Origin: Desulfuromonas sp. TF
GTDB taxonomy: Bacteria; Desulfobacterota; Desulfuromonadia; Desulfuromonadales; ATBO01
Direction: 5' to 3'
DNA: 38,085 nt
NCBI RefSeq assembly: GCF_000472285.1
Contig: NZ_KI421422.1
Coordinates: 12,951-51,035, forward strand
Part shown: in pieces, positions 22,582 to 37,459 of the stretch
How positions within the stretch are numbered: the stretch's first letter is position 1
How the letters are laid out: the number at the start of each line of letters is the position of its first letter
Position numbers and translations under genes: made by a program
Notes under the pieces: model-generated
Database searches by the model: none
What the model was told of the DNA's origin: nothing
Seen by the model: only the letters and a program-made list of their open reading frames with translations

Positions 22582-23697
22582 TCACTCCGCCTCTTCCCCA
22601 TGCGGCCTCCAGCCAAACACGGCCTTCCTAAGCTCGCACCGATCCTCCGGAGAACTCAGATCCCCATGGACGAGGAGGGCCCGGGCCGGACATCCTCCGC
22701 CGCAGTGCCCTTTCGCCGGGCACCCCCGGCAGGTCTCGATCGTTTCGGCCCGGTGGCGGCAGGCTTCGAGCAGCCCGCTCCAGAGAGGAACGGCTTTGGC
22801 GATCGTCTCGGACAGGGGCCGCTCGAATGCTCCAGGGGCGGCGAAGGCTTCCGAGTGCAGCAGGGCGCAGGGAAAGAGCCGGCCGTCGGCGGTGAGATAG
22901 AGGGTTTCGACGAAGGAACAGCAGCCCGATGTCCCCTGATCGCGGCCGAGCCACCATTCGATGGCGGAGAACCTGCCCAGCTTGTCGTACAGCTTCCGGA
23001 ATTCCGCATCGTGCCGGTAACGGTCGAGCAGATCGGTGTACTGGGAGGGGAGCGGCGGCTGGAAGGGGGAACCGGAGGCCCGGCCGTGGGAAACCAGGGT
23101 CGAACCGACGACCTCCTTCACCCCGAACCAGTCCGCCAGATAGAGCAGGCCGGGAATCTCCGCCATGTTGTGGCGCATCTCGGTGAAGTTGATCGTGATC
23201 TTGCGGCCGAAGCCGCTTTCGACCAGGCAGTCCAGTCCGGCCAGGGCCGCCGCGAAGGCGCCTTCTCCGCGGATTTCGTCATGGGTTGCCGGCGTTCCCC
23301 CTTCCAGACTGATCTGGAAGGAGAGCCCCTCGAAACGCAGGGAACGCAGGGCGTCGGCATCGCGGTGGGTCAGAAGGGTGGCGTTGGTCTGCAGACGAAG
23401 GGAGCGGAGCGACGGCTGGCGGCAGAGGTCGGAGACGAGATCGAACCAGTCGGGTCGGGTGAGGGGCTCGCCGCCGGTCAGACAGATCTCCTCACCTCCC
23501 AGGGCCAGAAACTCTTCGACCACTCTGCGGACCTCGGCGACAGGCACATGCCCGGGACGGGGACTCTCAACCAGGCAGTGGGCGCAGTGCAGGTTGCAGT
23601 CCCCGGAGATCGCCAGGAAAAGGGTCTTCGGGAGCTTGAGGCCGGCCCTTCGGAGTGTCTCGACGGCCGACCTCTCTGCTTCGGGTCGAATCGGCAT
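22582..23697 (-). CDS. SPASM-domain radical SAM protein of the tungsten-enzyme cluster
   Basis: A 371-residue radical SAM enzyme. The CxxxCxxC cluster motif is Cys34-Cys38-Cys41 (GDCNLHCAHC), followed by GGEPL. The C-terminal SPASM region has a cysteine-rich pattern (GCCSF, GRLFPCALL, CRGCPAKGHCGGGCPA, DRCEL) for auxiliary Fe-S clusters. Radical SAM/SPASM proteins of this type are known next to AOR-family tungsten enzymes and have been proposed as maturases; that is the most likely role here. It is the last gene of the AOR cluster, 37 bases after the E1-like gene. SPASM proteins normally modify a peptide or protein, and the substrate (AOR itself or a small neighbour) is not shown by sequence. 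Confidence 0.85.
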   Translation of the reverse strand: MPIRPEAERSAVETLRRAGLKLPKTLFLAISGDCNLHCAHCLVESPRPGHVPVAEVRRVVEEFLALGGEEICLTGGEPLTRPDWFDLVSDLCRQPSLRSLRLQTNATLLTHRDADALRSLRFEGLSFQISLEGGTPATHDEIRGEGAFAAALAGLDCLVESGFGRKITINFTEMRHNMAEIPGLLYLADWFGVKEVVGSTLVSHGRASGSPFQPPLPSQYTDLLDRYRHDAEFRKLYDKLGRFSAIEWWLGRDQGTSGCCSFVETLYLTADGRLFPCALLHSEAFAAPGAFERPLSETIAKAVPLWSGLLEACRHRAETIETCRGCPAKGHCGGGCPARALLVHGDLSSPEDRCELRKAVFGWRPHGEEAE

Positions 23698-23734: not shown

Positions 23735-24547
23735 TCAAAAGGTGACTTCCTCGATCTCCATATCGTGGAGGTTGATGGAAAGCTTGCGGTTGCGCAGGAG
23801 CGTTCCTTCGCCGAGGAGCACCTTGCAGGCTTCGGCAGCCTCCAGGCTGGCGACCACCGCCGGTGTGAAGGAGGGATTGCCGAGCTTCTGCTCGATCCCC
23901 TTCCCTCCCTTGAAGTGACGGTAGATCTTCGCGACGCTGTCCTCGCCGGGATAGACGGTGGTGATGTGTCCGTACCATCCGGCGATGGCCCCGTGAACCA
24001 GGGGAATCTTCAGGCGGTCGCAGACCTCGGCCAGCTCCAGGCGCACCGGAATGCTGTCCACGGCATCGATGACCACGTCCATGCCGTCGAAGAGATTCGC
24101 GCCGTTCTCGCGGCTGAACGCCTCCCGGACGGGCAACAGCCGAACCGCCGGGTTGATCTGGCGGATTCGCGCCTCGGCCGCATCGACCTTCGCCTGGCCC
24201 AGGTTCTCGACCGAAGAGAGAAGCTGCCTGTTGAGATTGTGCTCCTCAAAGACGTCGGGATCGATCGCCGTGATGCGCCCCACCCCTAGCCGGGCCAGCT
24301 CTTCGAGGATATATCCCCCCAAGCCACCGCACCCGACCACCGCCGCCTTGCTTCGAAAGAGTTTCAGCTGCTGGGGGAGGGAAATCATGTGCCGGTTGCG
24401 CTGATAGCGGGCCGGGAGGTATCCGGCCTCAAGGGCCGCCTCTTCGACGGCGGGGCAGGACAGGTCGAAGCGCGCCATCGCCTCCGCCTGCCGGAGCCAG
24501 GGCAACAGGTCGCCGTCCGCGTGCTCGGCCAGAAATTCTCTCACCAT
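23735..24547 (-). CDS. ThiF/MoeB-family E1-like adenylating enzyme (AorE-like)
   Basis: A 270-residue E1-like enzyme that would adenylate the C-terminal glycine of the MoaD-like protein. The nucleotide site is visible: VGCGGLGG (71-78), the acidic end of strand two (AIDPD, 94-98), NLNRQ (104-108) and DAVDS. It lacks the two CxxC zinc motifs and the catalytic cysteine loop of MoeB and ThiF. The N-terminal 55 residues are an extra helical segment. The ATG at 24545-24547 has GGAGGG upstream and lies four bases past the MoaD-like stop. By comparison with the aorDE pair known beside tungsten AOR in Aromatoleum, its role is probably in making the tungsten-pterin cofactor. Confidence 0.87.
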   Translation of the reverse strand: MVREFLAEHADGDLLPWLRQAEAMARFDLSCPAVEEAALEAGYLPARYQRNRHMISLPQQLKLFRSKAAVVGCGGLGGYILEELARLGVGRITAIDPDVFEEHNLNRQLLSSVENLGQAKVDAAEARIRQINPAVRLLPVREAFSRENGANLFDGMDVVIDAVDSIPVRLELAEVCDRLKIPLVHGAIAGWYGHITTVYPGEDSVAKIYRHFKGGKGIEQKLGNPSFTPAVVASLEAAEACKVLLGEGTLLRNRKLSINLHDMEIEEVTF

Positions 24548-24551
24548 CGCT

Positions 24552-24776
24552 TCACCCTCCTCCCAGCAGGGGGAAAATGGCCAGGGTTTCGCCGTCGGCC
24601 ATAATCCGTTCCAGATCGACATGCCGGCTATTGACCAGGAGAATGCCGAGTTCCGACTCCGGGATCTCCAGCTCCCGCACGATCTGCCGCACCGTCGTCC
24701 CTTCGGGGTATTCCCGGTTTTCGAGGGTGAATCGGCCGGTGCGGAAAGTGGCAAAGAGCTTGACGGTAATCTCCAT
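24552..24776 (-). CDS. MoaD/ThiS-like sulfur carrier (AorD-like)
   Basis: A 74-residue ubiquitin-fold protein. It begins MEITVKLFATFR, contains EGTTVRQIVREL, LLVNSRHVDLERIMADGETLAIFP and ends LLGGG, with the terminal di-glycine needed for adenylation and thiocarboxylation (one extra glycine is present). It sits three bases after the preceding gene and four before the E1-like gene, an obvious carrier/activator pair. A dedicated copy beside AOR suggests sulfur delivery to the tungsten-pterin dithiolene rather than general molybdopterin synthesis. Confidence 0.9.
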   Translation of the reverse strand: MEITVKLFATFRTGRFTLENREYPEGTTVRQIVRELEIPESELGILLVNSRHVDLERIMADGETLAIFPLLGGG

Positions 24777-24779
24777 GAT

Positions 24780-25415
24780 TTACTCCTCGAATAGGACGCG
24801 CAGAGCGACGGATTCATCGGCCGGGGCGCTCCGGAGTGATTCCTCGAGAAGCCCCGGGTCGGCGGTGCGCCCCTCCAGCAGGATTGAACGGCACCCTTCC
24901 CAGAACCCCTGCGGCTGGGCGGCCAGGAACTCCGCGAGATCCGGGGCGGGAAGCCGTATCCCCCTGGCCAGGAAACCGGGTCCGAGTTCGGCCATCAGCA
25001 GGTTGAACAGCTTGACTCTGATCTCGCCGTTTCCCTGCGCGCCGTCACCGGCGAAGTCATGGTGGGTGATGTCGCTGCGCATGGCGGAGTAGTAGCCGCC
25101 GCACCGCATGGTCGCCCCGACCAGTCCGGGCATGGCGGCCGAAAGCGCCAGGGTGGCCCCGGCGGCGATCCGGCTCGATGCGGGATCGTCGATGGCCCTG
25201 GAATTGAGAAATATGGTGGTGATCCGGCCGCTCAGGTAGTCGGGCCGGATTCCGAACTGTTCGCAGAGGAGTTCCCGGATGCTGAACCCGACCCGCGCCC
25301 GGATGGTGAATCCCTGCTGCAACAGAGGGAAAAACCACCGAATTGGATCCGGATCTCCCGGACGCCGGGGCGCGAATACGAGGTTGATACTTGTGCTGCG
25401 GTTCTCTTTAACCAT
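24780..25415 (-). CDS. Uncharacterised AOR-cluster protein with an internal beta-grasp (MoaD-like) segment
   Basis: A 211-residue protein I do not recognise as a named family. Residues 43-100 resemble the neighbouring MoaD-like protein: GFSIRELLCEQFGI matches GTTVRQIVRELEI, and IFLNSRAIDDPASSRIAAG followed by ATLALSAAMPGLVG matches LLVNSRHVDLERIMADG and ETLAIFPLLGGG. Here the fold is embedded, with no free C-terminal glycines; after it come TMRCGGYYSAMR and a helical C-terminal domain (130-211). It lies between the zinc-ribbon protein and the MoaD-like gene, three bases from the latter. A scaffold, cofactor-binding or insertion role in AOR maturation is a guess from position. Confidence 0.75.
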   Translation of the reverse strand: MVKENRSTSINLVFAPRRPGDPDPIRWFFPLLQQGFTIRARVGFSIRELLCEQFGIRPDYLSGRITTIFLNSRAIDDPASSRIAAGATLALSAAMPGLVGATMRCGGYYSAMRSDITHHDFAGDGAQGNGEIRVKLFNLLMAELGPGFLARGIRLPAPDLAEFLAAQPQGFWEGCRSILLEGRTADPGLLEESLRSAPADESVALRVLFEE

Positions 25416-25426
25416 GAGCTCAGGAA

Positions 25427-25654
25427 TTATCCTTCGATGGGATCACCGGCCAGGTGGCTCAGGTTGCACCCGCGGCAGGTTCCGTAGCGCGCCGGCAGTT
25501 GGACGATATTGACGGTGCAGCATTGGGGGCAGAGCCAGGAGGCATACCCGTCAACCTCCCGTCCGGCGAGCTCGCCGAACAGCCATCGATAATAGGCTTT
25601 CCAGTCATATTCCGGAGTCTGTCCGGCTTTTTCCACCAGCTGTTCCAGCAGCAA
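25427..25654 (-). CDS. Small zinc-ribbon protein in the AOR operon
   Basis: A 75-residue protein with a TTG start (25652-25654) preceded by AGGAGG five bases ahead. The N-terminal half is helical and acidic (LLEQLVEKAGQTPEYDWKAYYRWLFGELAG). The C-terminal half has CPQCC and CRGC pairs, a rubredoxin-like or zinc-ribbon knuckle that could hold Zn or one iron. It lies 111 bases after AOR and 11 before the 211-residue gene, so it belongs to the operon. It could be an electron carrier or an assembly factor. I do not recognise a named family. Confidence 0.7.
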   Translation of the reverse strand: MLLEQLVEKAGQTPEYDWKAYYRWLFGELAGREVDGYASWLCPQCCTVNIVQLPARYGTCRGCNLSHLAGDPIEG

Positions 25655-25765
25655 GAGTCCTCCTGGAGGGGGAACGATAACATGTGTTCGACAACTATAA
25701 CATTCTCATGATTCCAATGGAAGATCGCGGGGGCGGATTCAAACCCGCCCCCGCGCGGGTCTGCT

Positions 25766-27502
25766 TTACCAGTTGAACACTTCGTCCAGCTCCTCGTCCT
25801 TCATGGAGAATACCTGGTTGTGGGGCGCGATCGGGTCGGTATAGAAGAAGCGCGGCAGCCGGTCGTCCTCCTTGGAAAAACCGGCGCGCTTGTTGAAGTC
25901 GCGTTCGGCGGAGAGGACCTTCTTGCCGAGATCCACCACGCCGTCGGCCGTAAGCTCGGTGCCGTAGAAGGCGTTGAGCATGTCGAGCAGCGCCTGGAAG
26001 GTCTCGGGCTGGTCCATGATCGCGAAGGCGATGAACAGGCACATGCCGGTGGAGTCGATGGCCGCCGTGGCGATCTGCAGGTTGCGGGAAAGCTCCACCT
26101 GCCCCTCGGTCTTCAGCGGATCGACGTCGCCGCCGACCTTGAGGATGTTGGTGGCGATGGCGTAGCCGGCCGTGTGGTCGGCGCCCATGGTGGTGGTGGC
26201 GTAGGTCACGCCGATCCCCTGGATGGGACGCGGATCGTAGGCCGGAATGGCCTGGTTCTTGACCACCGGCACCTTCTCGACGCCGAACACCTTGCCGGTG
26301 ATCCCCGCGCCGCAGCCAAGGATGCGTCCCAGAGGCGTCCCCTTGCCGACCTCTTCCATCAGCCGGATGGCGCCTTCCTTGTCGCCGAACTCGATCAGCC
26401 CGGCATCCATGGCGACGCCGATGGTGGCGCCCATTTCGATGGTGTCGAGACCGATGTTGTCGTCCATGAAGTCGAGCTTGGCGACGGTGTCGAGGTCGTC
26501 GATGCCGCAGTTGCCGCCGTGGGCCCAGACCGTCTCGTATTCCGGCTGCTTGGTGAGGTAATGGCCGTCCTTGTCGTTGTAGATACCCGAACACTGGATG
26601 ACGCAGCCGCGGTGGCAGCCGTGGGTGGCGGTCCCGCCGCGCTTGATCTCCAGCTCGGCCAGGGCTTCGCCGCTGAGCTTGGCACCGGTGGGGAAGACCC
26701 CGGTTTTGAAGTTGTAAGTCGGATAGCCGCCGGCCTCGTTAAGGACGTTGGTCAGCACGTTGGTGCCGTACGCGGGCAGCCCCTCGCCGGTGACCGGATG
26801 CTTGCGCAGACCCTCGACGAACTTGCGGTTGGCGTCTCGGTACTTCTCAGGGTCCTTCGGGGCGCGATGCTTCATGCCGGCATCGTCGAGGATGATCGCC
26901 TTGACCTTTTTCGAGCCCATGACCGCGCCGACGCCGCCGCGGCCGCAGTGCCGGGTGGGACGCAGTTCCGGGTCGGTGCAGGCGATGGAAGAGCCCAACA
27001 GCAGCCGCTCGCCGGCCGAGCCGATGGACATGTAGGCGACTTTGTCGCCGTACTGCTCGCGCAGTTTGGCAACCGTCGGGTAGTTGTCGAGCAGCTTCAG
27101 GCTGTTGTCGACTTCGACCTTCACCCCGTCCTTGTTGACGATGATCTTGTAGAGGTCGTCCCCTTCCGGCTTGCCTTCCAGAATGATGGCGGCATAGCCG
27201 ATCCGGGCCAGCACCTGGGCAGCCTGGCCTCCGGCATTGGATTCCTTGATGGTGCCGGTCAGCGGGCTCTTGCAGCCGACCGAAAGGCGGCCCGTCATGG
27301 CTCCGGTGCTGCCGCTGAGCATCCCGGGAGCGATCACCAGCTTATTTTCGGCGCCGAGGGGATGGCACAGGGGATGGACTTCCTTGTTGATGATCAATGA
27401 GGTCGTGGCACGGCCGCCCAGACCGGCATATTCGCCGACCGGCTCCGTGGTAATCTTCGGACCGCCCTTGGCCCCCATGTCGATTCTGACTATCTTGTCC
27501 AT
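25766..27502 (-). CDS. aor: Aldehyde:ferredoxin oxidoreductase family (tungsten-pterin) enzyme
   Basis: A 578-residue AOR-family enzyme that oxidises aldehydes to acids (or reduces acids) using a tungsten-bispterin and one [4Fe-4S] cluster. Domain 1 motifs appear early (GLGGRATTSLI; MLSGSTGAMTGRLSVG). The pterin motifs are D348NIGLD and D483STGMC, and Cys488 is the expected fourth cluster ligand. The other ligands are Cys296, Cys300 and Cys304 (GCHRGCVIQC), spaced CxxxCxxxC, whereas the archaeal AOR has CxxCxxxC. The ATG at 27500-27502 has AGGAAA ahead; an upstream extension is unlikely. It is the first gene of a cofactor-assembly operon, preceded by a sigma-54 promoter matching that of the mycofactocin operon. 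BamB-type benzoyl-CoA reductase is the main alternative but the neighbours do not fit. Confidence 0.93.
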   Translation of the reverse strand: MDKIVRIDMGAKGGPKITTEPVGEYAGLGGRATTSLIINKEVHPLCHPLGAENKLVIAPGMLSGSTGAMTGRLSVGCKSPLTGTIKESNAGGQAAQVLARIGYAAIILEGKPEGDDLYKIIVNKDGVKVEVDNSLKLLDNYPTVAKLREQYGDKVAYMSIGSAGERLLLGSSIACTDPELRPTRHCGRGGVGAVMGSKKVKAIILDDAGMKHRAPKDPEKYRDANRKFVEGLRKHPVTGEGLPAYGTNVLTNVLNEAGGYPTYNFKTGVFPTGAKLSGEALAELEIKRGGTATHGCHRGCVIQCSGIYNDKDGHYLTKQPEYETVWAHGGNCGIDDLDTVAKLDFMDDNIGLDTIEMGATIGVAMDAGLIEFGDKEGAIRLMEEVGKGTPLGRILGCGAGITGKVFGVEKVPVVKNQAIPAYDPRPIQGIGVTYATTTMGADHTAGYAIATNILKVGGDVDPLKTEGQVELSRNLQIATAAIDSTGMCLFIAFAIMDQPETFQALLDMLNAFYGTELTADGVVDLGKKVLSAERDFNKRAGFSKEDDRLPRFFYTDPIAPHNQVFSMKDEELDEVFNW

Positions 27503-27684
27503 TTCCAAATTTCCTTTCTTGCCACTGTTTACGACTTCTCCTTTCCACCAGGGAGGCAAAGCCGTTTCCGGCCCTACCCTTAGGCCTTTCGCCTTGGGAA
27601 TTCACCTTTAGGCAACCAGGCTCGGAGATAACGAATATCGTTCAGGCACCGGTCGAAGCGGCCGTACAGTAGTGCAACCGGATG
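27503..27684 (-). promoter_or_regulatory. Long leader of AOR with stable hairpins; candidate structured RNA
   Basis: About 180 bases lie between the predicted start of transcription and the AOR ATG. The minus strand has GCCG-GAAA-CGGC, a perfect GNRA-tetraloop hairpin (27561-27572), flanked by AAGGCGAAAGGCC and CTTTGCCTCCCTGG. A complete gene is not seen. GCCTCC-type sequences next to molybdenum and tungsten genes recall Moco-RNA leaders, but I cannot confirm a match from memory, so this remains a candidate. Confidence 0.35.
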
Positions 27685-27912: not shown

Positions 27913-29340
27913 TCAGACAACGGCCGGAGAGATGCGCATGCGGTAGCTGGCGAAGCTTCCTTGTCGGATGCAGCCCCAGAGTACCCCGCCGCCGTAGGCC
28001 AGTTGCTCCAGAAGATAGTAGAAAAAGAAGAAGGGAACCAGGAGCTTGGGCCTGCGCACGTGGTAGTCGACGCCGCCGACCCAGAGGAAGACAGCCGCCG
28101 CCGGAATCCCCAGGGAGGGGAACAGGGCAATCATAAGCGAAAGAGGGAGCAGGTAATATCGCAGGAGATGATATCCCGCGTAATAGGCCAGGCTCGCCGC
28201 CGCCCGGCCCCTGGCCAGAAGAACCTCCCCATAGGACAGGGGGATGCCCTGGCGGGCGATCCGTCGATGCGCCAGGGCCGCATCGCTCAGCAGCAGGGCC
28301 ACGGCCGCGGCGAGGGGAAGGCCGTTCAACAGTACGATACCCGATGCCAGCAGACCCACGATGAGGGCGAGAACGGGAGGAAAGACCATCTTCTTCTGGC
28401 GAAGCGGGTGCAGATTCTGCAGCATCCCTTCCGAAGTCCCGTACTCGAAGCGCCGCTTCATGAAAGCCTTCAGCCGGCTGCGGTGCTCATGCCAGACCCG
28501 CCCCCGCGGAAGATAGACGATCCGGCCTCCGGCATCGCGCATCCGCCAGGTCAGGTCGACGTCCTCCCCGACCCTGAGTTCCTGCCGGAAGCCGCCGAGG
28601 GAGGCAAAGGCACTGCGCCGCACCAGCAGGTTGCAGCTCGGCAGATAAAAGGTATCCTCCCCGGCATCGCCTGAGCGCTCCCTGCCGCCGAGGTTCAGGC
28701 TCGACATGACCGCCTCGTAGCGGTCGAGAGGAGAGGCGCTGTGCAGACCGTCCACCCAGCCGCCCACGGCGCTGACCTGCTCGTCCTCGAAGGCGCCGAT
28801 CAGCTCTGTCAGCCACTCGGGTGAGGCCGTGCAGTCGGAATCGATAAAGGCCAGGATTTCCCCGGAGGCAAATCCTGCGCCGGTGTTGCGCGCCGCCGCA
28901 GGCCCCCTTCCCACTCCCCCCGAGGTGACCAGGAGGGCGCCGAACTCCCGGGCCACGCCCGGAGTCCCGTCGCTGCTGCCGTCGTCGACGACGATGACCT
29001 CGAGCCTGTCCTCCGGATACTTCAACCGGACCAGGGACTGCAGGCAATTCCTCAATTCCCCGGCGCGGTCCTTCACCGGGATGACGACGCTCACCGAAGG
29101 GTAGGTTGCCGCCTCTCTTTCGGCAGGCAGGTCCTTTTCGACGAACCCTTTTTTGGCCAAGGCTTCGAGAGCCTTCGCTTCGGCTTCCGAGGCGGGGGAA
29201 GCCCCTTCCGACGCCATGCGCCGTACCAGGGCCAGCAGCGACGGGTTCAACCGTACCGTGCGCAGCGGCCTGGAGCTCAGCAGGAACCCGCCCTGCTCAT
29301 TTTCCCTGATGCTGACGCCTTCCCTGATCCGGTAAATCAT
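27913..29340 (-). CDS. mftF: Mycofactocin glycosyltransferase MftF
   Basis: A 475-residue membrane glycosyltransferase family 2 enzyme that, in mycobacteria, adds an oligoglucan to premycofactocin. Residues 1-80 are a PqqD-like domain (MIYRIREGVSIRENEQGGFLLSS...RTVRLNPSL), an MftF hallmark. The GT2 domain follows: SVVIPVKDRAGELRNCL, VIVVDDGSSDGTP, AARNTGAGFASGEILAFID and DSDCT (the DxD-type metal site), then VGEDVDLTWRMRDAG and a C-terminal set of three or four membrane helices. It overlaps etfB by four bases (ATGA). It is the last gene of the mft operon. Its stop is followed by a gene-free gap of 410 bases that holds the AOR promoter and leader. Confidence 0.93.
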   Translation of the reverse strand: MIYRIREGVSIRENEQGGFLLSSRPLRTVRLNPSLLALVRRMASEGASPASEAEAKALEALAKKGFVEKDLPAEREAATYPSVSVVIPVKDRAGELRNCLQSLVRLKYPEDRLEVIVVDDGSSDGTPGVAREFGALLVTSGGVGRGPAAARNTGAGFASGEILAFIDSDCTASPEWLTELIGAFEDEQVSAVGGWVDGLHSASPLDRYEAVMSSLNLGGRERSGDAGEDTFYLPSCNLLVRRSAFASLGGFRQELRVGEDVDLTWRMRDAGGRIVYLPRGRVWHEHRSRLKAFMKRRFEYGTSEGMLQNLHPLRQKKMVFPPVLALIVGLLASGIVLLNGLPLAAAVALLLSDAALAHRRIARQGIPLSYGEVLLARGRAAASLAYYAGYHLLRYYLLPLSLMIALFPSLGIPAAAVFLWVGGVDYHVRRPKLLVPFFFFYYLLEQLAYGGGVLWGCIRQGSFASYRMRISPAVV

Positions 29341-30233
29341 CCGCCGCTCCCGCCGATCAGCCCTTCGGCCTTGAAGATGTCGAGCAGCTTATCGGCCGCC
29401 TTCTCGGCGGATACCGAATGGACCTTGCCTTCCCTTGGCTTGATGCCTCCGGAGAGAAGGGCCAGGATCCGCTCGAAGGCGGGCAGTTCGGCATCGGGGG
29501 TGACCACCCGCCGGGGATTGGGCCGGGGGAAGAGGCATTTTTCCTTCCCCAGAACGGACCCGGCGGCTCCCAGCTCCCGTGGTGAAAGACCGAGTTCGGC
29601 GATGCCCCAGGATTCAATCGATGCTCCGATCGACCTCATCAGGGCGTCCTGTCCCGGATAACGCGGATCGCAGCACCCGTTTTCGAAGAAAACCGCGCAG
29701 GGCATCTCCGCCCGCACCCGCTGCCGGGCGCCGCGATCGCTCTTGCGCAGGACCTCCACCTCGTTCCCTTCCCTTTCCAGAGCGACGGCCCCTTTGACAT
29801 AGGGAAGGTCGAGATTGGCCGCCGCCAGCGCGGGCGCCGGATCGTCGCCGCGATCGAGGAGAGCCTCTCCTGCAAAGATGAGAGCGGGGCGCAGAATCCG
29901 GATAATGCGCTGCACCACCCGCGCGGTGGCAACGTCGTCGCCTCCTTCGAAGGAGGGATTCCACACCCGCACGGCGCGTTCCGCGCCCATGGCGAGTGCC
30001 AGACGCAGATGGTCGGCAAGCCTCTCGGGACCGACGGCAACGGCCGTCACCCTTCCGCCGGCCGATTCGGCCAGGACGAGGGCCTGCTCCAGGGCGCAGA
30101 GATCCGCCGGGTTGGCGAGGCGCCGCAGCCCCCGGTCGCGAATCCCGTACCCGTCGGCCGTCAGCCTCGCCGGCGGCCGGGGATCGCAGGTTTCGCGCAG
30201 AAGAACCAGAATATCGAGAGTGTTATCAGCCAT
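29337..30233 (-). CDS. etfB: Electron transfer flavoprotein beta subunit, mycofactocin-associated
   Basis: A 298-residue ETF beta/FixA-like protein. The N-terminal LDILVLLRETCDPRPPARL, the NPADLCALEQALVLAE segment (usual NPYDEIALEEALR), VTAVAVGPERL and LIFAGEALLDRGDDPAPALAAANLDLPY follow the ETF-beta fold and contact the AMP or FAD site. It is longer than most EtfB (about 260) with a divergent C-terminal extension ending GGSGG. AGAGGAA precedes its ATG. A repeat-like gap of 170 bases separates it from fixX, unlike the four-base overlaps elsewhere in the operon. It would pair with the ETF alpha encoded three genes upstream. Confidence 0.88.
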   Translation of the reverse strand: MADNTLDILVLLRETCDPRPPARLTADGYGIRDRGLRRLANPADLCALEQALVLAESAGGRVTAVAVGPERLADHLRLALAMGAERAVRVWNPSFEGGDDVATARVVQRIIRILRPALIFAGEALLDRGDDPAPALAAANLDLPYVKGAVALEREGNEVEVLRKSDRGARQRVRAEMPCAVFFENGCCDPRYPGQDALMRSIGASIESWGIAELGLSPRELGAAGSVLGKEKCLFPRPNPRRVVTPDAELPAFERILALLSGGIKPREGKVHSVSAEKAADKLLDIFKAEGLIGGSGG

Positions 30234-30403: not shown

Positions 30404-30688
30404 CTACGTCATCCGGTATGAGACCCCGAATCCGCCCCGGGGGTAGCGCCAGCGGGTAAAGGCATCCCTGGCGCAGACCACGTAGCAGGTGCCGCATTCG
30501 AGACAGCCGTCATGGACAAAGGTCATCTTCCCGTCCTCTTCCGACCAGGTGTAACAGCGCGCCGGACAGGCGTTGACACAGGCTCTCTGGTCGCACTTCT
30601 TGCAAATCTCGGTGTCGAGGACGATGTGCGGTTCGCGGTCGACGTTAAAGCTGGTGGTGTCGAAAATTTCATCGGGATTGATGTTCAT
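30404..30688 (-). CDS. fixX: FixX-like ferredoxin
   Basis: A 94-residue ferredoxin-like protein of the FixX/ETF-QO type. Two cysteine groups are present: CKKCDQRACVNACP and CLECGTCYVVC, enough for two [4Fe-4S] clusters; GCLECGTC is the hallmark of FixX and of ETF:quinone oxidoreductase C-termini. The chosen ATG at 30686-30688 overlaps the fixC stop (ATGA) and has GGAG ahead; an in-frame ATG four codons upstream is possible. FixX passes electrons between FixC and the quinone side of the complex. Confidence 0.92.
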   Translation of the reverse strand: MNINPDEIFDTTSFNVDREPHIVLDTEICKKCDQRACVNACPARCYTWSEEDGKMTFVHDGCLECGTCYVVCARDAFTRWRYPRGGFGVSYRMT

Positions 30689-31983
30689 AGTGCTCTCCAT
30701 CCGGAATAGACATCGGCCAGCAGGTTCTTCAGGCCGACTTTTTCCCTGGCGGCCCGCAGCAGCACCTTGGTCATGGTGTCCTTGGGAGCGCCGTCGATGC
30801 GGTAAATCTCGTCCATGAGGCCGCAGACCATCTCTGGATACTGGGAATAGATGCGGTCGTTGTGCAGCATCCCGGGGGTGCGGCGGTAGAGCTTGAGGTC
30901 CTTCAGAACGTAGCTCTCTTCGAGCATCCGCCGGTAAACGGCCAGCCCGGCCCTGGAGAAGTCTTTTTTGGCGTGCGCCTCGACGGCGGCTTTGCCGGCC
31001 AGCACCCCCGACTGGGTCGCCAGGTTGATTCCCTCAAGGTTCAGGCCGGTGACGATGCACATGGCCGCGGCATCTCCGGCCACCAGGATGCCGTCGCCGA
31101 CGATTTCCGGCATCATCTCGTAGCCTCCTTCGGGGACCAGATGGGCCGAATATTCGAGCAGCCGGCCGCCCCGGAGCATCTTGGCCATCTGCGGCTGCTT
31201 CATGAATGCGTTGAGGAGATCGTAGGGGGTCTTGCCGCTCTGGCTGAGGCTGCTCAGATGCAGCACCAGGCCGATCGACAGGGAGTCGTAGTTGGTGTAC
31301 AGATAGCCGCCGCCGCGCACCCCCTCCGTGCAGCCCACGATCTCGTTGGAGGCCCCCTGGTCGCGCACCAGTCCGAAGCGGTCGTCGATCACCTCCTTGG
31401 GCAGGTCGACCATCGCCTTCACCCCGACCGCCTGATGGGACGGATCGAACTTGGGACGGCGCAGGCCCGCCTTCTTGGCGGTGAAGGAGAGGACCCCGTC
31501 GGCGGCGATCACCACCGGGGCTCTCAGCTCGGCGCCGTCACGCAGCATGGTGACCCCGACCACCTTCCCTTTTTCGATGACCACGTCGTCGACGGTGGAG
31601 CGGGTCAGCAGGGTCGCGCCGGCTTTCACGGCCTCTTCCGCCAGCCAGCGGTCGAAGCGGGGACGGTAGATGGTGTAGCCGTTGTAGGGGGGGCGATCCG
31701 AGGCTTCGGTGTCGAAATTGACGTTGAAGCTCGACTCGCCGGTCATGAAGGTCAGGGATTTCTTGACGATATGGCGCTCCAGGGGGGCCTGGTTCCAGAA
31801 GTCGGGAAAGGCCTCCTCCAGCGCCGTCAGGCGGTGCAGGACCCCGCCGAACATGTTCTTTTCGCCGGGGAAATCGCCCCGCTCCAGCAGCGCGACTTTG
31901 AGCCCGGCCCTTGCCATGGTCAGGGCGGCCGACGATCCGGCCGGCCCCGCGCCGACTACGATGGCGTCAAATGATTGTTTCAT
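30685..31983 (-). CDS. fixC: FixC-like flavoprotein (ETF:quinone oxidoreductase type)
   Basis: A 432-residue FAD protein of the geranylgeranyl reductase/FixC/ETF-QO group. The dinucleotide motif VVGAGPAGSSAALTMARAGLKVALLERG is at 10-37, followed by KNMFGGVLHR. Later are VIAADGVLS and GDGILVAGDAAAMCIVTGLNLEGINLA (the second FAD contact), and a C-terminal segment near the membrane-docking region of ETF-QO. Together with FixX and the two ETF subunits this makes a complete FixABCX-like electron transfer set inside a mycofactocin operon. ATGA overlaps link it to etfA before and fixX after. Electrons would flow from ETF to menaquinone, or by bifurcation; sequence alone does not decide. Confidence 0.93.
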   Translation of the reverse strand: MKQSFDAIVVGAGPAGSSAALTMARAGLKVALLERGDFPGEKNMFGGVLHRLTALEEAFPDFWNQAPLERHIVKKSLTFMTGESSFNVNFDTEASDRPPYNGYTIYRPRFDRWLAEEAVKAGATLLTRSTVDDVVIEKGKVVGVTMLRDGAELRAPVVIAADGVLSFTAKKAGLRRPKFDPSHQAVGVKAMVDLPKEVIDDRFGLVRDQGASNEIVGCTEGVRGGGYLYTNYDSLSIGLVLHLSSLSQSGKTPYDLLNAFMKQPQMAKMLRGGRLLEYSAHLVPEGGYEMMPEIVGDGILVAGDAAAMCIVTGLNLEGINLATQSGVLAGKAAVEAHAKKDFSRAGLAVYRRMLEESYVLKDLKLYRRTPGMLHNDRIYSQYPEMVCGLMDEIYRIDGAPKDTMTKVLLRAAREKVGLKNLLADVYSGWRAL

Positions 31984-33002
31984 GCGGCACCTCCCACGGC
32001 TGATTTGACCCGCTCGACGAGCAGGGGCAGGACGTGCCGCAGATCGGCGACAAACGCCTCGTCGGAATTGGGAAAGATCGGCGCCTTGGGGTCGAGGTTG
32101 ACCGCGACGATTCTCTTCGAATCCTTGATTCCTCCCAGGTGGTGCATGGAGCCCGAGATCCCCAGGGCCAAGTAGAAACGGGGAGCCACCGTCTTGCCGG
32201 TCTGCCCGACCATCCTCTCGAATCCGGCGAAGCCCAGGTCGTAAACCGGCCGGGTCACGCCGAGCGAGGCATTGAGCAGACGGGTCAGCTCCCGGACCTG
32301 TTCGAAAGTTTCCTTGTCGCAGCCGAGTCCGACACTGACCATGACCTCAGCCTCCGATACATCGACGGTCTGGGGATCGGGGGGAATGCGTTCGAGGATG
32401 CGGCTCGCCCCGGCGGCTACCGGAGCCGAAGGGCGCCACCATGCAACCTGGGCTTCGCCGCGCCGCATAGCGGGAAGCACCACCGCACTCAACACCAGCG
32501 GGCTCATGGTTAGAACCAGCGGAGACGTTCCGTCCCACACTTTCGTCTCCGCCACCTGCTCGCCGAGAACCCTCCGGCTCATCTTCAGGCCGGCCTCGTG
32601 CTCTTCGTAAGAGATCGCTTCGGTAAAAAGGGCGGCTTTCAGCTGCGAAGTCACAAGCGGCGCCAGGGTTCCCCCCAGATCATTGTGGGGAAGGAGCACC
32701 AGCGTGGCGCCGAGTTCCGATGACGCCTGGGCCAGGAGTCTGCCCTGGGCTTCCAGGCTGTCGGCGACCCCGGGGGCGCTCTCGATCAGCGTAACTTTTT
32801 GGACGCCATAGGGAGCCATTTCTTCAATGGTCTCACTTCCGGCGCCGGCAAAGCTGATCGCCGACCAGCCGCAGCCGAGCCTCCCAGCCAGCCGGGAAGC
32901 TTCCGACAGGACGCCCCTGGCGGTTTCGTCGATCTCTCCGCAGGAGAGATCGACGAAGACCAGGACCTCCCCGGGGAGGAGGGTGGAAATCCTCTCTGTC
33001 AT
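31980..33002 (-). CDS. etfA: Electron transfer flavoprotein alpha subunit, mycofactocin-associated
   Basis: A 340-residue ETF alpha/FixB-like protein. The N-terminal half follows the alpha-subunit adenosine fold (LPGEVLVFVDLSCGEIDETARGVLSEASRLAG; ATLVLLPHND). The C-terminal FAD domain is clear: MVGQTGKTVAPRFYLALGISGSMHHLGGIKDSKRIVAVNLDPKAPIFPNSD, matching the canonical GQTGKxVxPxLYxAxGISGAxQHxxGxxxSxxIxAxNxDxxAPIF. Its ATG shares bases with the OYE stop codon (TGATG at 33000-33004). ETF alpha binds the redox-active FAD. Its association with mft genes points to mycofactocin-derived electrons as the source. Confidence 0.94.
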   Translation of the reverse strand: MTERISTLLPGEVLVFVDLSCGEIDETARGVLSEASRLAGRLGCGWSAISFAGAGSETIEEMAPYGVQKVTLIESAPGVADSLEAQGRLLAQASSELGATLVLLPHNDLGGTLAPLVTSQLKAALFTEAISYEEHEAGLKMSRRVLGEQVAETKVWDGTSPLVLTMSPLVLSAVVLPAMRRGEAQVAWWRPSAPVAAGASRILERIPPDPQTVDVSEAEVMVSVGLGCDKETFEQVRELTRLLNASLGVTRPVYDLGFAGFERMVGQTGKTVAPRFYLALGISGSMHHLGGIKDSKRIVAVNLDPKAPIFPNSDEAFVADLRHVLPLLVERVKSAVGGAA

Positions 33003-34963
33003 CAGATCTCCCTCCCGATCTTGTGTCCTTCCCAGATGGCCATGTCAACCTTGCGCGGAGCCACGCAGTCGCCGATGCGATGGAGTTCCTTCACCTTCCC
33101 CTTGAGCGCGAAATAGAGTTCGTCATCGACCGCCTGTCCCATGGCCAGAACCACGGTATCGTAGCCGCCCCATTCGTCCCACTCGTTGGAGTAGACGTTG
33201 AAGCCCTTGATCGTCTTGGCGCCGGCCTCGCCGCCCACCTCCATCACCGCGATGTCCGGAGTGAAGGAAACCCCCTTCTTCAACAGCCGCTGGCGGGTCA
33301 GATAGAGATCCTGGGTTGGGCCGAGTTCGGCGCCTATGAACAGACTGGAGCAGATGATGTGCACCTGTTTTCCCTGGGTGGCGAGGTACTCGGCAGTGGC
33401 GGTGGCCCGGTGGTGTCCGTCGTAATCGATCAGGCAGACCTTCTCGCCGACCTCGACCTTCTGCTCGAGAACTTCCCATACGTTGCATACCCCGGGGCCG
33501 TCGGCGCCGCCGACCGGGTGCGGCTTGGGCCGGCTGCCGGTGGCGATGATGACCGCATCGGGATCGGCCTGAAGGATCATCTCCGGGTTCGCCTCGACCT
33601 CGAGCCGGACCGTGACCCCGGCCTTTTCGACCTGGTCCTTCTCATTGCGGATGATCACGCCGAACTCATCGCGGCCGGTTCCCTTCATCCCCGTGCGCAC
33701 CTGGCCGCCGAGGGTGTCGTTGCGGTCGAGCAGGGTGACGTCGTGGCCACGCCGGCCGGCCATCTTGGCCGCCCACATGCCGGCCGGGCCGCCGCCTACC
33801 ACCGTCACCTTCTTCTTCACCGGGGCCGGTTTGAGGGTCCCCTCCCCCCACTTCTTCTCATAGCCGATGGGCGGATTCTGCACGCAGCCGATGGTCTTGT
33901 TCATGCCGATGCGGCCGATGCACCCCTGGTTGCAGGCGATGCAGTAGCGGATGTCTTCGAGCCGCCCTTCCTCGGCCTTCTTCGGCAGGTAGGGGTCGCA
34001 GATCAGGGCGCGGCACATGCCGATCATGTCCGCCTGGCCGGCGGCGAGAACCTTCTCCGCCATCACCGGATCGTTGATGCGGCCGGTGCAGAAGACCGGC
34101 AGCTTGATCTTTTCGCGCACCCCCGCTGCGAGCGGAATGGTATAGCCCAGCGGGGTGTGCATCGATCCTTCGACCAGGTAGAGGTTGTAGAAAGTGGCGA
34201 TGGAGAGGTCCATGAAGTCGATCAGCCCCGAGGCCTCGAAAAGAGCGCAGATCTCCTGGACCTGGGCGAGGTCGAGGCCGCCGGGAATCATTTCGTCGGC
34301 GCACATGCGGATGCCGAGGGTGAAGTCGTCGCCAACCGCCTTGCGCACCGCGGAGATGAACATCAGAGGCGCCCGCATGCGGTTCTCCAGGCTGCCGCCG
34401 AATTCGTCCGTGCGGTGGTTGGTCAGCGGCGAGAGGAACTGACGGGCCAGGCTCGAGTGGCCGAACTGCAGCTCCACCCCGTCGAAGCCCCCCTGTCGGA
34501 CATGCTCGGCGCTGAGGGCGAAGTAGCGGGCGACCTCCTCGATATCCTCGGCCTCCATCTCCTTGGGGGTCTCGCGGAACAGCACGTCGGGGACCGGCGA
34601 AGGGGCCCAGACCGGCAGCCGCGAGAGACTGCCGTCCCCCTGCTGGCCGTTGTGGTTGAGCTGGGCGAAAATCTTGGAATCGAACTGGTGAACGTAGTCG
34701 GTGACCTTCCTGAACCCGGGAACGACCTCGGCATGATAGACGTCGATCAGCTTCTCGTAGGCCATGTCGGTGGGATGGACCGTCAGCTCCTCGGTGATGA
34801 TGAGGCCGGCGCCCCCCTTGGCCCGCTCCCCCCAGTAGTACATCTGGCGTTCGCTGGGCAGGTTTTTCTCCGCCAGGTTGGTCAGGTGCGGCTGGAAGGA
34901 GATGCGGTTCTTCACTTCCACTTTGCCGAGTTTCATGGGCGAGAACAGATTCGGGAACATCAT
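33002..34963 (-). CDS. OYE/FadH-type flavin-[4Fe-4S] oxidoreductase of the mycofactocin system
   Basis: A 653-residue enzyme of the 2,4-dienoyl-CoA reductase (FadH)/Old Yellow Enzyme group. The N-terminal TIM barrel (about 1-340) has LFSPMKLGKVEVKNRI, GGAGLIITEE, AQLNHNGQQGD and an FMN-site GRINDP. A [4Fe-4S] motif CIACNQGC...GCVQNP follows (about 352-376), then an FAD/NAD(P) domain with VVGGGPAGMWAAKMAGRRGHDVTLLDR. Such oxidoreductases are known as mycofactocin-associated families; their substrate is not established. The ATG at 34961-34963 has AGGAG ahead; the frame extends upstream through a REP-like repeat that should not be coding. It may replace MftD/MftG as the redox partner that hands electrons to ETF (inference). 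Confidence 0.93.
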   Translation of the reverse strand: MMFPNLFSPMKLGKVEVKNRISFQPHLTNLAEKNLPSERQMYYWGERAKGGAGLIITEELTVHPTDMAYEKLIDVYHAEVVPGFRKVTDYVHQFDSKIFAQLNHNGQQGDGSLSRLPVWAPSPVPDVLFRETPKEMEAEDIEEVARYFALSAEHVRQGGFDGVELQFGHSSLARQFLSPLTNHRTDEFGGSLENRMRAPLMFISAVRKAVGDDFTLGIRMCADEMIPGGLDLAQVQEICALFEASGLIDFMDLSIATFYNLYLVEGSMHTPLGYTIPLAAGVREKIKLPVFCTGRINDPVMAEKVLAAGQADMIGMCRALICDPYLPKKAEEGRLEDIRYCIACNQGCIGRIGMNKTIGCVQNPPIGYEKKWGEGTLKPAPVKKKVTVVGGGPAGMWAAKMAGRRGHDVTLLDRNDTLGGQVRTGMKGTGRDEFGVIIRNEKDQVEKAGVTVRLEVEANPEMILQADPDAVIIATGSRPKPHPVGGADGPGVCNVWEVLEQKVEVGEKVCLIDYDGHHRATATAEYLATQGKQVHIICSSLFIGAELGPTQDLYLTRQRLLKKGVSFTPDIAVMEVGGEAGAKTIKGFNVYSNEWDEWGGYDTVVLAMGQAVDDELYFALKGKVKELHRIGDCVAPRKVDMAIWEGHKIGREI

Positions 34964-34991
34964 GGCTGGATCTCCTGGTTTCCTATTATTT

Positions 34992-35025
34992 CCCTCTCCC
35001 CGAGGGAGAGGGTCAGGGTGAGGGG
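34992..35025. repeat. REP-like palindrome between mftC and the OYE gene
   Basis: CCCTCTCCC-CGA-GGGAGAGGG is a perfect nine-base inverted repeat, followed by TCAGGGTGAGGGG. This is the widespread bacterial REP-type sequence often seen as isolated copies between genes. Here it sits inside an operon in the 76-base gap and could stabilise mRNA or act as an attenuator. Confidence 0.7.
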
Positions 35026-35039
35026 GTTCAATCCGATTT

Positions 35040-36083
35040 TCAAGCGGCGGCGGCCTTCTGCTTCTCATCGGCGATCGAGGTCACGCAGCGCTCCAGGCAC
35101 TCGGGATCGCCGCCGTTGATGTCGTTCTTCAGATGATAGGCGACCGCCGGACAGCCGCCGTGGCACTGGTCGAAGCGCCGGCACTCCTCGCAGGAATGGA
35201 TGCGCAGATCCCGGAAAGAGGCATAGATTTCCGAGTCGTCCCAGATCTCCTGGAAGGTCGACTCGCGCAGGGAGCCCGCCTTGAATCGCTCGGTCTGCAG
35301 AAAGGCGCAGGGATACATGTTGCCTGTCGGGCCGACACAGCAGGTCAGCTTGGCCGCGCCGCACAGGTTGAGACCCAGTCCCTGTCGTTCCTGGGAGGTC
35401 AGCGAAAAGAAACTGTCGCCGGTGCGCACTTCGCCGCTGTCCGCTAGCCAGTCGGAAAAAGCCAGCAACTGGGACGGGGACGGTCGAAGCTCCTCCCAGT
35501 TGTCAGCACCGCGCCCCGAGGGACGGAAGCGGCTGACCCGCAGCGAGACGCCGAGGTCCTTGGCGAGCTGGTGCAGGGCCGGGATCTCGGCTGCGTTCTG
35601 CGCGGTCAAGACCGTGTTGATACTTGTTGGGATGCGGGATTCGGCCAGCAGCCTGACCGCGGCGATCGCCGCATCGTAGACGCCCGCCCCGCGGATGGCG
35701 TCGCAGGTCTCGCGCGTTGCACCATCCATGCTGACCTGGATCGCCACCAACCGGCTCACGGCAAGGCGCTCGACCCGCGCGGCATCAAGCAGGGTGCCGT
35801 TGGTCGAAATGCAGGTCATGATTCCCCGGGCGTGGCAGGCATCGAGAATCTGCTCGAAATCGGGACGCATAAACGGTTCGCCGCCGCCGAAATTGATCTG
35901 GAAGACCTTGGCGGTATCGAGCTGTTCGACCAGGTCGAGGGCTTCGGCCGTGGTCATTTCGTCCTCGGCCGGCGCGCCCGAAGCCGACAGACAGTGGCTG
36001 CAGCTCAGGTTGCAGGCCAGCGAGACCTCCCAGGTCAGGTTGACCGGCGAGCGCAATCCCTGTTCAACAAATCGGTTGCTCAC
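35040..36083 (-). CDS. mftC: Mycofactocin radical SAM maturase MftC
   Basis: A 347-residue radical SAM/SPASM enzyme that oxidatively decarboxylates the C-terminal tyrosine of MftA and crosslinks it to the adjacent valine. The SAM cluster motif is Cys24-Cys28-Cys31 (ACNLSCSHC), then GGGEPF. The SPASM part has CGAAKLTCCVG, NMYPCAFL, CEECRRFDQCHGGCP and CLERC. I chose the GTG start at 36083 (VSNRFVEQG), preceded by GGGGG; a TTG six codons upstream is the alternative. It overlaps mftB by 20 bases. The identity rests on cysteine pattern, the neighbouring MftB and the MftA peptide ending GVY. Confidence 0.95.
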   Translation of the reverse strand: MSNRFVEQGLRSPVNLTWEVSLACNLSCSHCLSASGAPAEDEMTTAEALDLVEQLDTAKVFQINFGGGEPFMRPDFEQILDACHARGIMTCISTNGTLLDAARVERLAVSRLVAIQVSMDGATRETCDAIRGAGVYDAAIAAVRLLAESRIPTSINTVLTAQNAAEIPALHQLAKDLGVSLRVSRFRPSGRGADNWEELRPSPSQLLAFSDWLADSGEVRTGDSFFSLTSQERQGLGLNLCGAAKLTCCVGPTGNMYPCAFLQTERFKAGSLRESTFQEIWDDSEIYASFRDLRIHSCEECRRFDQCHGGCPAVAYHLKNDINGGDPECLERCVTSIADEKQKAAAA

Positions 36084-36321
36084 GGAGGAACCCCCTTTCA
36101 AGCAGTTGCGCGATGAATTTCTGCAGAACCTTCTCCTCCGCTCCCGTCAAACCGGCCGGAAGCTCCTCCTTGCCCCGGACGTCGCTGAAGAAGTCCGAAG
36201 CAAGCAGGTTTCCGGTCTGGGCGAAGAGAAGACGCGGCCCCCTGGAATCGTAAAAAAGGAGGCCGAACCTCTCCTGCCGCACGCGGCAGGCCGGATGCAG
36301 CCTTATGCCTGCCGCAGCCAT
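36064..36321 (-). CDS. mftB: Mycofactocin peptide chaperone MftB
   Basis: An 85-residue PqqD-like (RRE-type) chaperone that binds the MftA precursor and presents it to MftC. It starts MAAAGIRLHPACRVRQERFGLLFYDSRGPRLLFAQTGN, matching the MftB pattern (xPxxxVRxExFGxLFYdxxxxRLxFxxS). The ATG at 36319-36321 is one base past the mftA stop (TGAGATG), with GGAG inside the end of mftA as the ribosome site, so translation is coupled. It overlaps mftC. Confidence 0.93.
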   Translation of the reverse strand: MAAAGIRLHPACRVRQERFGLLFYDSRGPRLLFAQTGNLLASDFFSDVRGKEELPAGLTGAEEKVLQKFIAQLLERGFLREQPIC

Positions 36322-36322: not shown

Positions 36323-36442
36323 TCAGTACACTCCGCAGATGCCGTCGATCGCGAGCTCTTCAACCTGGATGTCTTCCAGGATACGGGGCTCTTCGTTGCA
36401 CGTCTCGTTCGTCTGCTTTTCGTTTTCCATTTTCGTTTCCAT
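36323..36442 (-). CDS. mftA: Mycofactocin precursor peptide MftA
   Basis: A 39-residue peptide, too short for usual gene finders. It is strongly acidic (12 Asp/Glu) and ends ...VEELAIDGICGVY; the IDGxCGVY tail is the hallmark of mycofactocin precursors, where the Val-Tyr dipeptide becomes the cofactor core. The ATG at 36440-36442 has AGGAG seven bases upstream; the second ATG (36428-36430) would give 35 residues. It is the first gene of the operon, directly ahead of mftB. The N-terminal half is the leader recognised by MftB. No protease gene of the MftE type is in the window, so release of the modified dipeptide must rely on a gene elsewhere. Confidence 0.95.
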   Translation of the reverse strand: METKMENEKQTNETCNEEPRILEDIQVEELAIDGICGVY

Positions 36443-36515
36443 CTCTGTCTCCTCTTTTTATTTAGAATGTCTTTATCGGCGCAAACCCGCGCTGCGCCTT
36501 TGTTTCTCTTATACT

Positions 36516-36562: not shown

Positions 36563-36927
36563 TAGCCAAAGCGAGCGGAATTAAAATTCAAAGGAGTGGG
36601 GAGAAATGGGGCATTCCTGACGGAAAGAGGCAGGCCGCACCGTGACCGAGTTGGGGATATTCTCCACAGAAGGTATTTTGTCTACAGTTATTCAAACCGA
36701 TGTTTTGATTTGGTCCTGAAAAAGACCGAGAGACATCAGAGTCACAGAGAAAATCTTTATTTTAATCCTAAACCCGGTGTCCTCGTGCCTCCGTAATTGA
36801 GGCTTCGATTCTACGAAATCATTACTGTTTTGGTATAGTTTCAGAAAAGACCAAATAGTCGGCAGACCGAATATCCTGAGTCTCGTTGGATTTTCAGCAA
36901 GGCCGAGAACCGTTACAAGGAACCTTC
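36563..36927. other. Divergent intergenic region between mftA and the Nudix gene
   Basis: No gene is seen. On the minus strand, TTTTCTCTGTGACTCTGATG (36760-36735 area) resembles a common dispersed bacterial repeat (CTCTGTGACTCTGTG type), here degenerate. Upstream activator sites for the mft promoter should lie in the AT-rich part 36540-36600. The Nudix promoter must lie at 36800-36900 but is not assigned. Confidence 0.4.
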
Positions 36928-37428
36928 ATGGGAACCAGACACTCTCACTGTTCTTTCTGCGGAACAGGATTTCCCGATCCGGAAAACTGGCCGAGGCGTT
37001 GCGGCGGATGCGGCCACACGACCTACCTCAACCCTCTTCCGGTGGTGGTGGTGCTTCTGCCGGTGGGAGAGGGTCTCGTTGTCATCCGCAGGAATATCGA
37101 ACCGCAGAAGGGCACCCTCACCCTTCCGGGAGGGTACATCGACATCGGCGAGACGTGGCAGGAGGGGGCGCGGCGAGAGTTGCTGGAGGAGACGGGGATC
37201 GACATAGGCGGCAGCATAATCAGCCTCTATGACGTGCGGAACGGCCTGGATAACACCCTGGTGATCTTTGGGCTGGCCGAGCGGCAGCCCGGCGAGGTCC
37301 TGAAGCCGTTCAGCTCCAAGGAGACGCAGGAAGTCGCCCTGATCGAAGGCCCGACGGAACTGGGGTTTCCTCTCCATACGGCGGTGGTGGCGAGGTATTT
37401 TTCTGAGATTGTGCGGGACGATGGATGA
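36928..37428 (+). CDS. Nudix hydrolase with N-terminal zinc ribbon (NudC-like)
   Basis: A 166-residue Nudix protein. Residues 6-30 form a zinc ribbon (CSFCGTGF...RRCGGCGH). The Nudix box is complete: GYIDIGE-TWQEGAR-REL-LEETGI, matching GX5EX7REUXEEXGU with all catalytic glutamates. The ribbon plus box resembles ADP-ribose or NAD pyrophosphatases of the NudC/YfcD group. The ATG at 36928 has AAGGA seven bases ahead; a TTG 14 codons earlier would extend it. It is the only clear plus-strand gene in the window. Its last 47 bases are duplicated exactly at the window end. Confidence 0.92.
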   Translation: MGTRHSHCSFCGTGFPDPENWPRRCGGCGHTTYLNPLPVVVVLLPVGEGLVVIRRNIEPQKGTLTLPGGYIDIGETWQEGARRELLEETGIDIGGSIISLYDVRNGLDNTLVIFGLAERQPGEVLKPFSSKETQEVALIEGPTELGFPLHTAVVARYFSEIVRDDG

Positions 37429-37459
37429 GGGACGAACCTTGCCTTTGTCTTTACCCGTC
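37382..37459. repeat. 78-base direct repeat, copy 1 (spans the Nudix stop)
   Basis: Bases 37382-37459 are identical to 38008-38085, a spacing of 626 bases. The copy covers the last 47 bases of the Nudix gene and the last 9 codons of the kinase on the other strand. Identity ends at a G/A mismatch on the left and at the window edge on the right. Confidence 0.97.

Follow-up and report, generated by a model that had tools for sequence, protein, structure and literature searches.

The window analysed here is a stretch of 38,085 bp of Desulfuromonas sp. TF (contig NZ_KI421422.1, positions 12,951 to 51,035), whose genome comprises 4.40 Mb on 17 contigs. The minus strand encoded, from 36442 to 36323, a protein of 39 aa, METKMENEKQTNETCNEEPRILEDIQVEELAIDGICGVY; the same interval read on the plus strand was not the gene. 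An earlier note on this DNA had proposed here, with no strand stated, a 39-codon precursor of mycofactocin (MftA). This was confirmed, as the product passed the curated MftA model TIGR03969 (E 2.4e-11, Table 1), which the note had named for comparison, the variant-type precursor model NF040489 (46.8 bits, cut-off 30) and Pfam PF23709 (27.2 bits, cut-off 27). Its C-terminus was IDGICGVY, as claimed, which agrees with the pattern xDGxCGVY (last four residues invariant), and the gene adjoined mftB and mftC, as MftA membership requires. A good ribosome-binding site (AGGAG, 6 nt ahead of the ATG) and a TGA stop followed by one base and then the mftB ATG were also present as described. Cysteines occurred at residues 15 and 36, one of them being the second cysteine reported for the leader, and acidic residues numbered 11 instead of the 12 claimed. 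A promoter and terminator scan 5′ of mftA detected nothing clearly exceeding shuffled sequences.

Table 1. Features of the mycofactocin locus and its flanks (window coordinates; scores in bits)
Feature	Position	Strand	Evidence
NUDIX hydrolase, divergent neighbour of mftA	36886..37428	+	weak Nudix-family matches, all under cut-off
Ribosome-binding site AGGAG, 6 nt ahead of mftA ATG	36449..36453	-	sequence
mftA, mycofactocin precursor, 39 aa; final two codons give the Val-Tyr core	36323..36442	-	TIGR03969 43.2 bits, cut-off 25; DGICGVY in 44/44 complete copies
mftB, peptide chaperone	36064..36321	-	TIGR03967 62.2 bits, cut-off 33
mftC, radical SAM/SPASM maturase; start codon uncertain, overlap with mftB end	35040..36101	-	TIGR03962 350 bits, cut-off 265
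OYE2, mycofactocin-system FadH/OYE oxidoreductase	33002..35068	-	TIGR03997 979 bits, cut-off 793
EtfA-like electron transfer flavoprotein subunit	31980..33002	-	Pfam ETF and ETF_alpha; NF038209 130 bits, under cut-off 240
FixC-like quinone oxidoreductase	30685..31983	-	FixC of 7koe 286.5 bits; PRK10015 393 bits, under cut-off 466
FixX-like ferredoxin	30404..30700	-	PRK15449 73.9 bits, under cut-off 166
EtfB-like subunit	29337..30233	-	TIGR04503 91 bits, under cut-off 200
mftF, mycofactocin glycosyltransferase	27913..29340	-	TIGR03965 378 bits, cut-off 280
AOR-family aldehyde ferredoxin oxidoreductase	25766..27559	-	AFOR_N and AFOR_C
Conserved 211-aa protein, beside AOR in many relatives	24780..25415	-	no Pfam match; position conserved
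MoaD-like protein, 74 aa	24552..24776	-	TIGR01687 23.8 bits, under cut-off 49.5
ThiF/MoeB-like protein	23735..24817	-	Pfam ThiF 177 bits
Second radical SAM protein, not MftC	22582..23697	-	Radical_SAM 77 bits; TIGR03962 99 bits, cut-off 265

MftB, MftC and MftF, with MftA the universal mycofactocin markers of Haft 2011, all scored over their cut-offs (62, 350 and 378 bits), and MftC contained a CX3CX2C motif at residue 30 along with cysteine motifs of the SPASM type. The family match of OYE2 began at residue 40, so its true start is probably internal. Homologues of EtfA, EtfB, FixC and FixX occurred together (a FixABCX/EtfABCX set), the individual PRK models staying under their cut-offs, and the FixC-like protein was closest to FixC of structure 7koe. 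Since the two flavoprotein subunits missed the cut-offs of NF038209 and TIGR04503 (130 and 91 bits), they are called ETF-like and were not filed under the mycofactocin-associated ETF. The order mftA-B-C-OYE2-etfA-fixC-fixX-etfB-mftF was kept in the loci of relatives as far as their contigs reached, with the exceptions of L109, L112 (the same as L041) and L121.

Other genes surrounded this operon. The ORF cluster of the divergent NUDIX gene was found in 37 of 61 clustered sequences (some duplicates, some too short to reach the gene), and in L109 the NUDIX gene sat between mftD and mftA. The segment from AOR to the second radical SAM gene (22582-27559), including the conserved, MoaD-like and ThiF-like proteins, was found close to the mft locus of many relatives. 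AOR was rejected as a mycofactocin-specific partner, because homologues of 76 to 88% identity were present in G004, G024, G036, G027 and G056, genomes without MftC over cut-off. Past the window end, 5′ of the mft operon and on the same strand (L177:2970-6471), genes encoded a VWA protein, an ATPase of the MoxR type and an iron-containing alcohol dehydrogenase. Among the 23 named loci exceeding 20.5 kb, homologues of these were present in 11, 9 and 11, respectively; a role in mycofactocin-linked alcohol oxidation is possible. This VWA/MoxR pair showed no homology at 1e-8 to the VWA/ATPase pair of the haloarchaeal clusters. An exact 78-bp direct repeat was seen at 37382-37459 and 38008-38085, the second copy ending at the window end. 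A run of 10 N (L177:1537-1546) started where this copy ended, and a histidine kinase gene was broken there; the repeat looks like a scaffold-gap artefact. Near the mycofactocin loci of some relatives there were ORFs (L157:14649-15929, L160:6764-7963 and L171:8612-9445) which, judging by eye, we take to resemble LarA, LarC and LarE of the lactate-racemase system.

Scanning of the named genomes with MftC yielded 54 loci, reduced to 53 when L132 (28% identity) was dropped; the nearest MftC by identity (87%) was from a Geobacter genome, which marks the bacterium of the window as Geobacter-like. mftA was complete in 43 of the 53 loci and cut at contig ends in the other ten (L090, L107, L116, L118, L125, L126 and L128-L131), and with the window copy 44 copies were compared. 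All 44 ended in DGICGVY (IDGICGVY in 43, FDGICGVY in L097). The Val codon was GTG in 18, GTT in 15 and GTC in 11, and the stop codon TGA in 19, TAA in 17 and TAG in 8. Invariant tails with drifting synonymous codons indicated that the core peptide is under strong selection at the protein level. The earlier note would have had its claim fall if relatives keeping mftBC had lost the GVY tail; none of the 44 copies had lost it. The leader cysteine on which that note laid stress was not required: residue -25 was Cys in 28 of the 44 copies, and four had no leader Cys in their last 39 residues. It was therefore rejected as a functional mark.

In a phylum sample of 395 genomes, MftF was over cut-off in 19, of which 15 were new to the survey; these were thus picked by MftF, not by MftC. 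A search for CG-[VIALM]-[YFWH] tails in stretches of the 15 genomes gave 12 tails in 11 genomes, 11 of them ending in GVY, and none in the stretches of the other four, the pattern missing tails of other kinds. A variant core was found in L160, the second mycofactocin cluster of G124, where an MftA (11895-12011) ended in VDGICGIY, that is, with an Ile-Tyr core (NF040489, 58.7 bits). That gene adjoined an AOR homologue, and no OYE2 match was present in the L160 stretch read. The window MftA also passes NF040489, with a higher score than for TIGR03969, yet it carries the ordinary Val-Tyr core. Because the strongest NF040489 match seen, that of L160, ends in GIY and the window protein in GVY, the variant label does not fit, and a variant core was rejected.

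The mycobacterial mftABCDEF cluster has MftA, MftB, MftC and MftF in common with the window cluster, which differs by the OYE2-EtfA-FixC-FixX-EtfB block between mftC and mftF and by the absence from the genome, by curated model, of MftD and MftE. MftD (TIGR03966) gave no match at 1e-3 in the genome of Desulfuromonas sp. TF; as a control, three of six plasmid records passed this model at 697 to 715 bits. Elsewhere, MftD was over cut-off in 4 of the 31 members of one set and in 5 of 56 genomes or records of another. OYE2 (TIGR03997) passed its cut-off in 11 genomes of the 58 searched, the present one included; all 11 belonged to the 12 in which MftC passed as well, and none of the other 46 had OYE2 over cut-off. 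The twelfth MftC genome, G037, had no OYE2 over cut-off and carried an MftD of 650 bits on its mycofactocin contig. OYE2 also passed in 44 of 56 further genomes or records, the genome handles of which covered 35 of the 53 named loci.

After removal of duplicates with identical contigs and coordinates (G066=G049, G067=G037 and G102=G065), 65 units (mycofactocin-type genomes or plasmid records) were assigned by hand to classes from the OYE2, MftD and MftC search results: 52 had OYE2 only, five MftD only, one both and seven neither at cut-off, chromosomal genes of the strains known by plasmid records, which are not whole genomes, lying outside these counts. The MftD-only units were G037, G464 and plasmid records of Thermomicrobium, Mycolicibacterium chubuense and Streptomyces NBC_00080. 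MftD and OYE2 thus largely excluded each other across the 65 units (Fisher p 5e-4, rising to 0.035 when plasmid records are left out and 59 genomes remain, relatedness being ignored in both). The sole unit with both, G046, contained OYE2 and two MftD copies; this assembly had 7% contamination, and its MftD stretches, as read, carried no other mft genes. Of the units with neither, G353 and G472 held broken or truncated pieces of OYE2, the mft contigs of G218 and G244 were fragments, two haloarchaeal records had OYE2-like genes (625 and 630 bits), and neither OYE2 nor MftD was present in the G058 assembly.

On an MftC tree of 72 rows (INDEPENDENCE), MftD-type L112 was sister to OYE2-type L115 with support of 100/100, and MftD-type L109 stood apart from this pair, in the same clade at an unresolved fork. 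Thus MftD was likely swapped in on at least two separate occasions within this order, unless whole-locus transfer is the explanation. In L109, mftD lay just beyond the NUDIX gene that diverges from mftA, and the OYE2-ETF block was missing between mftC and mftF. Among the actinobacterial rows, OYE2-type L155 was nested with MftD-types.

OYE2 outside anaerobes was seen on one Streptomyces plasmid, and OYE2-like genes on two haloarchaeal plasmids. The plasmid cluster of Streptomyces sp. NBC_00564 shared OYE2, ETF/FixCX and MftABC with the window, with no MftD on the record; unlike the window, it had MftE (301.5 bits), a second OYE and an actinobacterial gene order. Those of Haloterrigena and Halolamina shared an OYE2-like gene, ETF subunits, an FAD oxidoreductase and a ferredoxin beside mftA, mftB2, mftC and a glycosyltransferase, again with no MftD on the record; they differed in a creatininase/MftE gene beside mftA, in OYE2-like scores under the cut-off and in mycofactocin-coupled SDRs. 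The Saccharopolyspora clusters described in 2024 (PMC11162802) likewise combine OYE2 with MftABC; they are reported there to lack mftD and to carry TIGR03997 of 'unknown function', and S. erythraea to make a mycofactocin. A literature search, with many journals outside its coverage, found no published statement of OYE2-MftD exclusion, which appears unreported beyond this Saccharopolyspora note.

In M. smegmatis, deletion of mftD is reported to abolish mycofactocin (PMC7491314), and the MftD step has been called aerobic (PMC8406134), so a bacterium without MftD would need another enzyme. Oxygen alone does not explain the choice between OYE2 and MftD, given the Streptomyces and haloarchaeal plasmid genes and the report that mftD is induced and needed in hypoxia (PMC8406134).

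Gene identity and context were seen directly; the chemistry of the pathway is inferred from characterised mycobacterial homologues, described for MftB, MftC and MftF glycosylation in PMC7491314 and PMC11778925. By analogy with these, MftB would present the MftA precursor, and MftC would decarboxylate and cross-link its C-terminal Val-Tyr. The core would then be released, here probably by an unlinked peptidase, and oxidised to the alpha-keto lactam, after which MftF would glycosylate it. The oxidation, the re-oxidation of the reduced cofactor, or both, would probably be the work of OYE2, with EtfAB and FixC-FixX carrying the electrons on to the quinone pool.

By its co-occurrence OYE2 was the best candidate for the MftD step, and it may take this step, although we rate the chance at a little under even. 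In full, OYE2, EtfAB and FixC-FixX could form an oxygen-independent pre-mycofactocin synthase, deaminating AHDP oxidatively in place of the aerobic MftD and passing the electrons to quinone. The step would thus have two interchangeable versions, swapped at least twice within one order, and a Geobacter-like finish would consist of OYE2 and a non-MftE peptidase. This proposal is a tentative one, to which we give slightly less than even odds.

Comparison of OYE2 with solved structures bore on this reading from both sides. Trimethylamine and histamine dehydrogenases deaminate amines, and trimethylamine dehydrogenase gives its electrons to ETF. OYE2 matched these enzymes (1djn and 3k30) over the full-length domain at 231 and 226 bits, a measure of homology alone. 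They ranked behind NCR (348 bits, three entries), by its entry name presumably 2-naphthoyl-CoA reductase, and behind 2,4-dienoyl-CoA reductase (283 bits), and membership among the amine dehydrogenases is not claimed. That these two reductases outscored the amine dehydrogenases argues against OYE2 in the role of MftD, as do G046, with both OYE2 and MftD, and the G058 assembly, with neither.

A re-oxidation role for the module was about equally likely. OYE2-EtfAB-FixCX would then serve only to re-oxidise reduced mycofactocin, as MftG does in mycobacteria, an unrecognised enzyme would carry out the MftD step, and the exclusion would reflect two ecological package deals. The module feeds a quinone oxidoreductase (FixC), and a dedicated ETF-to-quinone chain suits high-flux re-oxidation no less than it suits a step of biosynthesis. 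MftG couples mycofactocin oxidation to respiration (eLife, PMC11778925), and in Streptomyces NBC_00080, the only MftD-type locus read that had an mftG annotation, mftD and mftG occurred together with no OYE2 over cut-off on the record. However, the pattern follows MftD at the level of the locus: L109 has mftD beyond its NUDIX gene and no OYE2/ETF block. A mycofactocin producer is also known in a genus whose clusters, as described in PMC11162802, lack mftD. On balance this alternative, too, falls somewhat short of an even chance.

MftE (TIGR03964, cut-off 172) was not found over cut-off in the genome; the best match was a creatininase of 124.6 bits (G000:C2:120095-120760), on a contig other than that of the mft locus. 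None of the 58 genomes of the order, the present one included, had MftE over cut-off, and 38 gave some match. Creatininase-family matches under the cut-off came from 11 of the 12 genomes whose MftC passed and from 27 of the remaining 46; G049, which has MftC, had none. Among the 56 further genomes or records three passed, all plasmid records, and none of the 50 further mycofactocin genomes (G065=G102 counted twice) did, 23 having no match at 1e-20. Six plasmid records with mft genes served as an imperfect control: three passed (314.6, 301.5 and 175.6 bits), W04 (158.5) and W01 (136.5) stayed under the cut-off, and W02 gave no match. A linked peptidase was not recognised by eye from the first letters of the ORF clusters present in at least six loci, unlabelled gaps being read as ORF starts, without HMM.

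With neither MftE nor MftD found by curated models, release and deamination of the core were unaccounted for by known enzymes. The earlier note had seen in mftA the key to a 'defined RiPP redox-cofactor pathway'; the scores of MftB, MftC and MftF bear out the pathway, and 'defined' was an overstatement for a genome in which curated models find no MftE or MftD. The MftD and MftE families are described as common, not universal (Haft 2011, PMC3023750). M. smegmatis deleted for mftE still makes mycofactocin, for which the authors infer a background peptidase (PMC7491314), so an unlinked peptidase could suffice for release here.

Alternatively, the generic creatininase of this genome could be a diverged MftE, leaving the pathway complete save MftD. 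Its score of 124.6 bits to TIGR03964 speaks for this, and the cut-off is not absolute, since the Halolamina gene beside mftA reached only 159 and is likewise under 172. Against it stand the spread of the family through genomes without MftC, its absence from G049, the lack of any passing score among the 50 mycofactocin genomes and the position on a different contig; a generic creatininase as MftE was thus disfavoured, and we consider this reading unlikely. More doubtful still, the core might not be released as AHDP, the product keeping extra leader residues as a larger peptide conjugate. Such a product would fit the passing of MftE in plasmid records only (0/58 and 0/50 genomes) and the glycyl-AHDP species reported to build up in the mftE deletion strain of M. 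smegmatis (PMC7491314); the background peptidase inferred by the same authors and the retention of MftF as a normal family member make it improbable. That mftA, short as it is, is a chance ORF can be dismissed in view of the curated HMM matches, the position and spacing and, already decisive by itself, the conservation in 44 of 44 copies with synonymous drift.

We put at about 0.93 the probability that 36323-36442 encodes MftA and that MftABCF constitutes a mycofactocin pathway. Nothing essential sets this gene apart from known MftA: it resembles the TIGR03969 family (PMC3023750) in the IDGxCGVY tail, the short acidic leader and the place immediately ahead of mftB and mftC. Published reports of mycofactocin in Geobacter go back to 2011, when the system was listed for Geobacter uraniireducens and Geobacter sp. 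M18 (Haft 2011, PMC3023750), and a genome note on Geobacter pickeringii places the pathway beside methanol-oxidation genes (PMC4358379).

The gene thus confirms mycofactocin coding in a Geobacter-like bacterium, which is useful for annotation and not new. The locus makes testable how this group, presumably anaerobic by kinship, finishes the cofactor without MftD, whose step has been called aerobic. Should OYE2 replace MftD, real clusters would escape genome-mining rules built on MftD, a miss of the kind described in PMC11162802, and TIGR03997 would gain a specific reaction.
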